From NCBI GenBank assembly GCA_025602905.1, contig JAHLKI010000007.1:248001-312000 (forward strand): a DNA stretch of 64,000 nt. The letters run 5' to 3'. Each line of letters opens with the position of its first letter. Within the stretch, counting starts at the first letter, position 1. This document shows positions 21,998-26,119 of the stretch, piece after piece. The translations under genes were made by a program, and so were the position numbers. The notes below the pieces were generated by a model. The model saw nothing but the letters and a program-made list of their open reading frames with translations, had not been told where the DNA came from and did not search any database. The DNA comes from Phlyctochytrium arcticum. Taxonomy: Eukaryota; Chytridiomycota; Chytridiomycetes; Chytridiales; Chytridiaceae.

Positions 21998-23623
21998 ATG
22001 TGGCGATCAGCACTAAACAGGGACGCTCCACGTCTCTGTCTCCGATTGATCCGGAAGTACGAGTTAGCAGCATTTGTCCAGAGATGCTTTTTGCAGCATT
22101 CAAGCGTTCGAAATGACCTTCACCAGAACAAAGTGAGCCGTACAGGTCATCGGAAGGGCAACAGTAGCATCCCTTCACGAGACTTGCAGGAAATAACTAT
22201 GGACAGTATGTTATGACATGGAATCTGGCTTGATGCCCTCTGATTTATTGAATCGTTTGTAGATCTTCTTCCTCCCTTACCAACGCTCCAACACCTGTAC
22301 GAGTCAAAGATTTTGACTACCACTCCTGATGAGACAAAGAGGATTGTCCAGCTGGCGCTTCAGCACTTGAAAGATAATGTTTCTTCCTCGACTAGCTACA
22401 CGTCCCTCTTGAAAGGTGCATACGGAATACACCCCGGACTTGTGAAACTTACACATTGCTGACATTCATCATAGCTTGCGGTGGAAAGCCCGCCACACTG
22501 GGGATCCTTGGAGCGATTCTAGGTCGTCAATCCAAAGGTATATGCATCCCTGCTTGGATTCGGTTTAAACGTAATTGTTGCATGTTGGAAAACTAACACT
22601 GGCGGAAAATACAATTAGATGGACGCTTTGTGGCAATATGTGTTTGCGAAGCTGGCTGGCGGACTGGAGATCTGAATGCCGGTTATCAACTTGCACGATT
22701 ACTTTATAGCGGTAATTCAACGGCCCCCTTGTAAATTGTTTTAGGATATTTAATGGGTTTCATAGGTGCTACGACCAAAAACAAAGATACAAAGCGAGCG
22801 CAAGAAATTATGGCAAACACTGCAGATTTGGGCCACACACCATCACAAATCGCACTGGGCTTGCGCCTAATAAACACGAAAGATGACATTAAAGTTGGGC
22901 TGGCCTGGTTGGAGAAGGCCGCAGCATCTGGAGCCATACAAGCTAGCATGCATCTGGGTATGTGTACTGCATGTCGACACAGACTATATGCGTGATTTCT
23001 TACAGTTTTATCGGTAGGGACACTATATGCTCAAGATCTTGACGCAAACCATCCCAAAAATCTTGAAAAAGCGATTCGTCACCTAAAGCGCGCCCACGAA
23101 AACGGTTGGTATGCATCACTTACTTCATGGACGTTTTGTTAACAGAAGTGTATCATATAGGACTCCCAGAAGCAACGTTTCTTTTGGGTACACATTACGC
23201 GTCAGGTGCAGCTAGTCCTAATTCTGCCCCGGACGAGAGGACTGCTATGCAACACTACCTAGCCGCCGCCGATAAAGGTAGGTGGGAGATCGAAAGTTAT
23301 GATCTCGGCGCTGTCCTAAGCTGCGTTTAGGCCTCTCCATCGCGCAGCACAACGTCGGCAGCTACTACTTTACAGGAACGGAGACTGGTATGCCACGCGA
23401 CATCTTGCGAGCTATAGAGTACTGGAAAATGGCTGCCATGGGTGGTCTGCAACTTTCACAAATCAATTTGGGGAAGCTATACTCGGAAGGCCTTGAAGGT
23501 GACCTTTCAAATCCAACCATAAAGAAAGATTTAGGATTAGCAAAGTCTTTTTTGGGACAAGCAGTAGAGCGGGGTGGCCCTCTCGGCCAGGAAGCTAAGA
23601 TGATACTAGAAGCATTGAATTAA
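21998..23623 (+). CDS. Sel1-repeat protein, probably mitochondrial
   Basis: Eight exons: 21998-22205, 22263-22415, 22475-22537, 22619-22711, 22766-22957, 23018-23104, 23161-23277 and 23331-23623. They sum to 1206 nt (401 aa). The start 'MWRSALNRDAPRLCLRLIRK' is Arg-rich and lacks acidic clusters, like a mitochondrial presequence. Sel1-type repeats fill the second half: 'GDLNAGYQLARLLYSG', 'ASMHLGTLYAQD', 'PEATFLLGTHYASGA', 'AQHNVGSYYFTGTETG', 'LSQINLGKLYSEGLEGD'. An alternative acceptor (TTTCTTACAG at 22996-23005) would add VLSV before 'GTLYAQ'. The gene resembles chytrid and yeast mitochondrial Sel1 proteins in form; the exact role is unknown. It converges on the Fanzor gene, stop to stop 63 bp apart. 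Confidence 0.75.
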
Positions 23624-23686
23624 AGCTCCTCTAGTGTAGGTTATATGTATCCAGTAATGTGTGATGCCGTCACGTGGCAATCCCAG

Positions 23687-25630
23687 CTAGTAGGGTAGTA
23701 GGGGTGATGATCGACGCAGGGGGAATGGCCGCTTCCCCACGCCGAATCGTCTTTGGTACCAGAAGAGAAAAGCAATATTTCGGGCGGCGTTGGTGTCTCG
23801 GTTCCACGTCGTGTAGCATTTTTGGCAATGTCGTACGGCATAGATCGCTTCACGGCTCCCTTTTGTAAATATATCGATACATCGGTTCGACGTCCCTGTT
23901 GTGATGTGTTTCAGTCGAAGAATTGGGAATCCTTGCGACATGTGTTTCCGACTTACCATTCTTTCTGCTTGTCATCCTTGGCTGTATTGTTGTCGTCGTC
24001 TTCATCGAGGTCCCATCTCAGCTCTTCAACATCATCTGGATCATCGGTGACACTTGGTACAGGCGGTGGTGTCTGGCTCTCGTCATCCTGCCAGCATTCT
24101 TCCTTCAAACAGCCTGAACATGCTCGCGAGGTACGATATTCATCTATCAGCACCAAAGTGACATATGTGGAAAGATGATTTTTGATTTTCTTCAGGGGAG
24201 CTCGTCTGCTTCCTTTCCGACCACCAAATTCGCCATTGCCAAACGCAACAATAACCCTGGATTTGTCCCTTTGTAAGTCATCGCCTTTATCCCGTCTGAC
24301 AACTTCGCTCAACGCCTTTTGGGATTGCCGGTGTTTATAAAAATTCCACCGGTGCTCTTTCGAATGGTACGTGGTCAAAAAGTCGACGGAACGAAACGTT
24401 GTTTGCAGATGTGTGAGATACGTTTGAAGGATGACCGTCTTGGGTGTGGTGATATTGGAAGTAAGTGTGGAAATAGATACACCCGCCACGGCGGCAACCT
24501 CCTTCTTCCAGGCGTCTCGCCACTGGTCTGTGAAGTTCTGTCCGGCCAGGTGCCGCCACTCGTTTCCGGACATGCCAAACGTTGTTTCCTTGCCCATTCT
24601 TGCCTTTTCCTTCCGTTGTTGGTGCGGCGAACTAGAGGCAGGCATCCGTTGTTGGTCGATATCCGGTTGAAACGATGGTGACAGACGGTGACGGTCGTCC
24701 GGGTCAAAGGTCATTCTCGGAATATATCCGGAAATAACATCCGACTCACCCGGGTCGATAGAACGGAAGACCACTTCTTCGTCAAAACAAACCGATCTTG
24801 GGGATGGAGGATCCGCTTTTCCAGTTGCTCCAGCCTTCGGTCGACGACAAATAAAGGAACAGGCCTCCCCGTCGGTGCTGATGATATTCGTGAACTCGCG
24901 TCTCTTCCCTTGCAATGGTCTGCACGTAAACTCTATCAGTATCGGCCAACAACGGCTGTCTTTGTTGCCAGTTGATCGCAGCTATCGAGATGTTCAATAA
25001 ACTCATCCAATTCTGCTGTGAAGGGCATCTGCCCCTCAAATTTTGCGTCGGCGAGCTTCAAGGCACCGCTTTTGAAATCGAGATTGTCCAAAAGTTCAGG
25101 GGAGAGGGAACACAATGCTGTTTGCGTGCCAGTTGAATTGGTGGTTTTTTCGAGAATAACAGGGGGATCGCTAGCTGCTGATACACTGTTGGTAACAAAT
25201 TCCATCACGGTAAAACGTGTCACTCACATTCGGGGTCATTAATCAATCCATCACCCCGAGGGATAACATCATTAATGATTTCAACAGACAGGTCTTGAGT
25301 TTCCTCCTGATTAGATCGGAGATATCGGTGTGGATGCGTCCTATCCAGCCAAACCCAGCAAGTTTTGCACAGCGAGGCCTCCTTGTGCCTCGCATCAGTA
25401 GCGAAGTGAAATTCAACGCCTTTGGCCCGGAGATGACTTAGCAAGCCAATATCTCGGTGATAGAATTTCGGGCTGTCCTTGGTCTTGCAGATGATACACC
25501 CTGCTGCGAATGACTCTTTCTTCCTGTCATCTGGGGTTTTGGATATGCGCGATGGTGAAGATTTGATGGGCGAGACAAAACGACCGCCGCGTCGTAGGGG
25601 CGATTGATTTTTGGGGGGGCTACCCGCCAT
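23687..25630 (-). CDS. Fanzor1-type RNA-guided nuclease (eukaryotic TnpB homologue)
   Basis: Exons 25630-25228, 25177-25003, 24955-23957 and 23855-23687 sum to 1746 nt (581 aa), near the ~640 aa of Spizellomyces Fz1. The N-terminal ~110 residues hold paired Cys (CIIC, CKTC). The Fanzor strand 'NIISTDGEACSFICRRP' precedes RuvC-I 'RSIDPGESDVISGY' (D~260). RuvC-II follows in 'VIVAFGNGEFGGRKGS' and 'LVLIDEYRTSRACSGC', where Glu~465 is the relocated acidic residue of Fanzors. The zinc ribbon is CSGC plus HCQKC, interrupted by an acidic linker. RuvC-III is 'NRDTNAARNI' (D~546), then the family-typical tail 'GVGKRPFPLRR'. All three acidic residues are present, so activity is plausible. The 47-nt intron with a GTTTAT donor and the last acceptor (GGGAG) are the weakest points; a frameshift is the alternative. 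Confidence 0.85.
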
Positions 25631-26119
25631 GATTGCTCAAATGTGCCCCGGTGGAATTGCCTAGAAATTCGCACAGAGTGAGTTTAGGTGGTATTCGGCG
25701 AGATCTGGGTATCCTTGTTACTGCTCTGTGCGGAGGAACAGAGTAGCAGGTCATGCAGGGGGGGGGGTCTAAAATGGCAATTGCGGTCGAAAAAGAGCAC
25801 ACAACTGATGTCATGGCTACAGTTTCCCGCCCAAATTGTCACATCTCCAACTAGCATACTCAGACTTGAACTTCGAGAGGTTTAAGCGCAACTTTACTAC
25901 ATTTTTTGTCGACTGACAGGTCCATATGGATTTCGCGTCAAAACTCTGATTACCTCAGCGAAGCTGGCATGTTCATTTCGGTCAAACAGGAAGGTGTGCG
26001 CTGGGGTATATATTGCATCTAAATCACATGACCAACTCAACACAGTGGACACCGAACTCCGATGTACTGGAAGAACGTAAACTTGCGCTGGCAATTTGAT
26101 CGAGGAAACTAACCGCAAA

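Follow-up and report, generated by a model that had tools for sequence, protein, structure and literature searches.

A Fanzor1-type locus of the chytrid Phlyctochytrium arcticum is very probably a dead chimera of two transposons

Does a Fanzor-like locus in the chytrid fungus Phlyctochytrium arcticum encode a complete RNA-guided nuclease, or does it only resemble one? The genome comprises 31.5 Mb in 91 contigs, and the window analysed here is a 64,000-nt stretch of one of them (JAHLKI010000007.1, hereafter C7); all features described below lie on its minus strand and are given in window coordinates. An earlier note, made from the sequence alone, had read positions 23687-25630 as a complete four-exon Fanzor1 gene which keeps every catalytic position, and which may be a working or domesticated enzyme. 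Our analysis places the locus in the right family but in the wrong state: it is truncated, chimeric and frameshifted. We regard it, with high confidence, as a dead transposon relic, in which the 3' part of a Fanzor1-type element adjoins the truncated left end of an unrelated transposon with terminal inverted repeats (TIRs). Most likely, no Fanzor protein is produced from it. Among the papers listed on Fanzor, on P. arcticum and on chytrid or Fanzor pseudogenes, titles and abstract openings made no mention of the locus.

The assignment to Fanzor was indeed correct for the 3' part, here called family B. Exon 3 of this family (23957-24919) contains RuvC-I, the alternative glutamate and the first zinc-ribbon CxxC, and its frame is open for 342 codons (23956-24981). 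Exon 4 (23687-23895) contains the second half of the zinc ribbon and the RuvC-III aspartate. The three acidic codons lie where the earlier note had located them, with GAC at 24754-24756 (RuvC-I DPG) and GAA at 24139-24141 (alternative glutamate), both in exon 3, and GAC at 23795-23797 (RuvC-III); the ends of its gene model were also borne out, with an ATG at 25630 and a last frame ending at 23687. In the exon 3 frame, the DPG motif stands at residues 76-78; the relocated glutamate is E281, followed by six residues and then C288, in line with the rule that the alternative glutamate of Fanzors stands six residues before the first CxxC (according to PMC10711439). A profile search, which the earlier note had proposed as a check, confirmed that the Fanzor match is real: the exon 4 frame matched Pfam PF07282 (Cas12f1-like_TNB, the TnpB/Cas12f zinc ribbon) with 28 bits, above the cut-off of 26.3. 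Searches of the PDB with the two window frames alone gave nothing significant. A three-sequence profile, built from the exon 3 frame of the window and two relatives from the same genome, matched a proven Fanzor (8gkh, E 2.5e-8), and this sole significant match to a solved structure is SpuFz1, a Fanzor1. By its sequence, this part of the window is Fanzor and not a chance resemblance. An AlphaFold2 model of exon 3, based on eight sequences, had a mean pLDDT of 39.2.

The upstream half of the proposed gene has another origin. A genome search with 23687-25636 returned the window itself and at least 19 other places among the best 20 candidates scored, and all of these were one-sided, 4 matching only below about 24953 and 15 only above. 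The genome copies fall into two sets, each matching one side of this position only, and comparison with them (13 genome stretches were retrieved) shows the window copy to be a chimera of two mobile elements, family A from 26005 to 24950 and family B from 24953 to 23653. At the junction (24950-24953), the family matches overlap by four bases, GTTG, which are common to both. A 501-bp query across the junction matched five other places in the genome, every one of them one-sided, and found no second copy of the A/B junction. The join itself is observed; as for its route, the best account is that end-joining, or else template switching in the course of repair, attached the B 3' part to a truncated A left end where the two have four bases in common, and the locus would then have undergone neutral decay. 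Two other arrangements were considered and rejected. The Fanzor piece is not cargo inside a complete family A element, as no right-TIR candidate in 22000-25950 is better than chance (the best has 9/24 mismatches, and 20 shuffles reach 8 or 9). Nor can a plain insertion of A into an entire B copy account for the locus, as the window shows no B sequence upstream of A.

The sequence that had been taken for Fanzor exons 1 and 2 is really the front of an unrelated family A transposon gene. Both exons are held by a truncated family A left part (24950-26005; about 1.06 kb of 3.9 kb), which is 74-75% identical at the DNA level to L013 and L014, two 3.9-kb family A elements that are 95% alike; this likeness extends from the TIR to the junction and no further. 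The left TIR (25962-26005, CCCAGCGCACAC...) shows 6/44 mismatches relative to the family A left end. Exon 1 (25228-25630, beginning MAGSPPKNQSP and containing CxxC...CxxC) is not Fanzor, and the same start with related sequence is found in L014. The predicted intron 1 (25178-25227, 50 nt, GTGAGT...TATCAG) is also possible in L014 with the same place and length, and exon 2 (24936-25177) crosses the junction and ends in ATKTAVVGRY-stop. L013 and L014 belong to the same family as the source of these two exons and, unlike the 3' part of the window, are not Fanzor. For L014, a splice model of 719 aa matched DUF6589 only weakly (E 0.086, 12 bits, cut-off 27). Inverted repeats beginning with CCCAGC, together with 8-bp target duplications, were present in each of the four family A copies checked (L013, L014 and the shortened, 1.46-kb L020 and L021). 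A complete element has both TIRs and an 8-bp duplication; the window has the left TIR only. Five further family A copies (L015, L016, L017, L018 and L019) carry an internal inverted block. In four of them (on C23, C2, C7 and C40) the distance to a contig end is about 3 kb or less, which suggests subtelomeric spread.

Contrary to the earlier note, the gene is not complete, for what precedes about 24953 does not belong to family B, and the N-terminal half is absent. The B part (23653-24953) is 97.2% identical to L009, 76% to L011 and 71% to L012; identity to L010 is 97.9%, over a shorter span. Only the 3' end of the predicted B intron 2 remains (24920-24953), its donor being lost; in L009 and L010 this intron reads GTAATT...GTGCAG. 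Because the window copy starts inside this intron, it lacks the N-terminal half. In line with this, the L009 stretch, which holds a whole B gene, matched the window only from 24953 to 23653, with no N-terminal part. The N-terminal frame of a relative in the same genome, L028, was found at no fewer than 17 genome places, including L009, L010 and L011, where it lies directly upstream of the Fanzor C-terminal parts; none of the best 20 candidates scored was on C7. By its position, and by position only, the missing half would correspond to WED/REC, the label being limited in this way because the L028 N-terminal frame had no significant match in the PDB (best E 0.83). In SpuFz1, N-terminal WED/REC residues, ahead of D383, E541 and D606, are described as binding the target motif, the guide and the heteroduplex (PMC10432273).

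Two features of the family B relatives deserve mention on their own account. A repeat of about 235 bp is inserted near the Fanzor right end of L009 (L009:7219-7452) and recurs at 97% in L011:3365-3603 and L019:8062-8301. Furthermore, contigs C2 and C13 share a 6.1-kb stretch at 98% identity (L009:1001-7133, L010:405-6517), which holds a family B Fanzor copy and, by eye, an RCC1-like gene; it represents a segmental duplication or, alternatively, a large cargo-carrying element.

The reading frame does not survive the junction, and a shift follows downstream. Four codons beyond the join, the A-derived frame meets a stop (VVGRY-stop). In the Fanzor frame, the first methionine is residue 90, so that none precedes the RuvC-I aspartate at residue 76. 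Further on, B intron 3 (23896-23956, 61 nt, GTAAGT...CAACAG) is identical in L009 and L010, and was placed by the read-through of L028 and of a second relative, L031 (KGW-DVRAQL and QKW-DLRPMY). Spliced at this intron, the window reads EW-DVEPMYRYIYK, then goes off frame and ends in REP-stop, because a run of four A (23861-23864) stands where the other four aligned B copies, without exception, have three. Both halves of the split zinc ribbon and the RuvC-III aspartate are present in the DNA, as the earlier note had described, but they are separated by this +1 frameshift, so that no complete in-frame zinc ribbon precedes the aspartate. It follows that the acidic codons exist, but that not every catalytic position is kept, the RuvC-III aspartate being out of frame behind the extra A. 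As it sits in a short A run, the extra A might be an assembly error; the absent half and the closed junction stand independently of it.

The 581-residue frame from four exons can indeed be drawn, although not in one way only. An enumeration of splice models with the start, end and motifs of the earlier note, and with GT or GC donors, gave 84 models of this length, so that no single model is identified; 40 of the 84 were listed, and the set is too large to be informative. None of the 84 is able to use the family's own third intron (61 nt, 23956-23896), since a join there ends in REP-stop and never reaches NRDTNAARN. Joins that do reach the second half of the zinc ribbon and the RuvC-III aspartate use another donor or another acceptor.

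The substitutions look neutral, with no sign of purifying selection, although eleven codon changes are few. At exon 3 codons in which the window departs from a state common to L009 and L010, 9 changes are non-synonymous and 2 synonymous, for a neutral expectation of 78% non-synonymous (codons with gaps left out). L011 sides with L009 and L010 at 7 of the 9 non-synonymous changes; it assigns neither the other two nor either of the synonymous ones to the window. Changes in L009 alone comprised 3 non-synonymous (one of them a stop) and 3 synonymous, and those in L010 alone 2 and 4, respectively. At least one frameshift was found in the shared region of every B copy compared (5/5). Among the observations against a relic, exon 3 of the window is open, whereas in L009, L010, L011 and L012 the shared region is interrupted by frameshifts and/or stops, and the three acidic residues themselves are unchanged in the window. 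In favor of a relic we observe the two origins, a junction with no second copy found, the absent half, the closed frame, the frameshift and the neutral-looking substitutions. With half of the protein absent, a frame both closed at the junction and shifted, and no sign of purifying selection in these small numbers, the suggestion of a working or domesticated enzyme is unsupported. That cryptic splicing does not rescue a product is what we infer.

The best surviving alternative, to which we give only a small chance, is that the locus serves solely as a source of guide RNA, its right end giving rise to an omega-RNA which would be taken up by Fanzor proteins encoded at other loci. The conserved right end of family B (23653-23686) is identical to that of L009 at 34/34 positions; within a 24-nt core, L011 and L012 show 4 mismatches each, and it was not found in L010. 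Between B copies, exon 3 has diverged more than the 3' stretch to which intron 3 belongs, as illustrated by the differences between the window and L012 (4/61 in intron 3, 22/176 after it and 169/602 in exon 3). Saito et al. describe ghost loci and omega-RNAs, the Spizellomyces 'ghost' loci being ORF-less (PMC10432273). By contrast, the predicted folding of 23653-23960 is ordinary (z 0.57), and 30 of 815 windows of the same width are as conserved as intron 3, many of them overlapping it. The shared region is broken in each of the five B copies compared, so that no matching protein is known, and no B left end is present. The intron 3 stretch occurs at five places in the genome, which are the five B copies, and its low divergence could be due to conservation of the RNA, to gene conversion or, the copies being few, to chance. 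That the relic is itself a guide-RNA gene, in which the right end and the conserved 3' stretch with intron 3 together form the omega-RNA for Fanzors elsewhere, appears slightly less probable again; if true, it would make the locus a chytrid 'ghost' locus whose RNA overlaps the intron of a coding gene.

A fusion gene, in which cryptic sites splice the zinc-finger-like A front to the Fanzor RuvC half, is very unlikely; its product would bind DNA or resemble a nuclease. In its favor, the frame of the A half is open and retains the family intron, the B half keeps its 342-codon frame, and in-frame GT/GC-AG combinations exist. However, the donor of B intron 2 is lost, the A frame meets its stop four codons past the join, and cryptic sites are needed, together with a third intron unlike that of the relatives if the RuvC-III aspartate is to be reached. 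As for a complete, working or domesticated four-exon Fanzor1 nuclease, the three acidic codons, both zinc-ribbon halves and the 581 residues of the 84 models speak for it, but it is almost certainly wrong, given exons 1 and 2 of family A, a B N-terminal half absent from the window and not found on C7 among the best 20 candidates scored, a frameshift ahead of the RuvC-III aspartate and neutral-looking substitutions.

The dead-relic reading has a practical side. The locus is an example of how a motif-based reading can turn two broken transposons into one apparently complete, active nuclease, and it should stay off lists of candidate editing enzymes. Fanzor-like matches are many in this genome, with 28 at the protein level for E no higher than 1 (a gene may account for several, and the window's own are counted) and 32 PF07282 matches, 13 of them over the cut-off, again with the window's own. 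Long uninterrupted Fanzor-like frames were noted on C44, C48, C27 (724-aa), C8 (731 aa) and C2 (623 aa); those on C44, C48 and C27 match the window frame weakly (E 0.001-0.003). To judge from sequence, these five are probably better candidates for a working enzyme than the window copy, and together with L028 and L031 they offer better starting points, all of them as candidates.

L028 (DFS34DRAFT_30418) and L031 (DFS34DRAFT_696937), respectively 37% and 31% identical to the window exon 3, share its order of motifs, and their C-terminal frames (429 and 412 residues) are open through the RuvC-III aspartate. In both, unlike in the window, a long N-terminal frame lies upstream (478 aa in L028 and 394 aa in L031; 38% alike), and each pair of frames would form one gene; the proteins deposited for these loci have only 409 and 448 aa, respectively, and the N-terminal match of L031 holds one TAA. 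SpuFz1 of Spizellomyces punctatus (8gkh) resembles the window from mid-RuvC to the first CxxC (profile positions 139-297), a stretch which includes the glutamate immediately ahead of the zinc ribbon; the alignment does not extend to RuvC-I or to the N-terminal half. This protein is described as having 638 residues, WED and REC domains and the metal-binding residues E541, D383, N385 and D606 (PMC10432273). Unlike SpuFz1, the window copy is without an N-terminal half and its last aspartate is out of frame. Sola2-Fanzor and other transposon/Fanzor chimeras, which encode Fanzor1 proteins according to Bao and Jurka (2013; PMC3627910), are like the window in having Fanzor beside sequence of another transposon superfamily. 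By contrast, inverted repeats and target duplications are described as flanking those chimeras, whereas the window has a left end only, and both of its parts are truncated.
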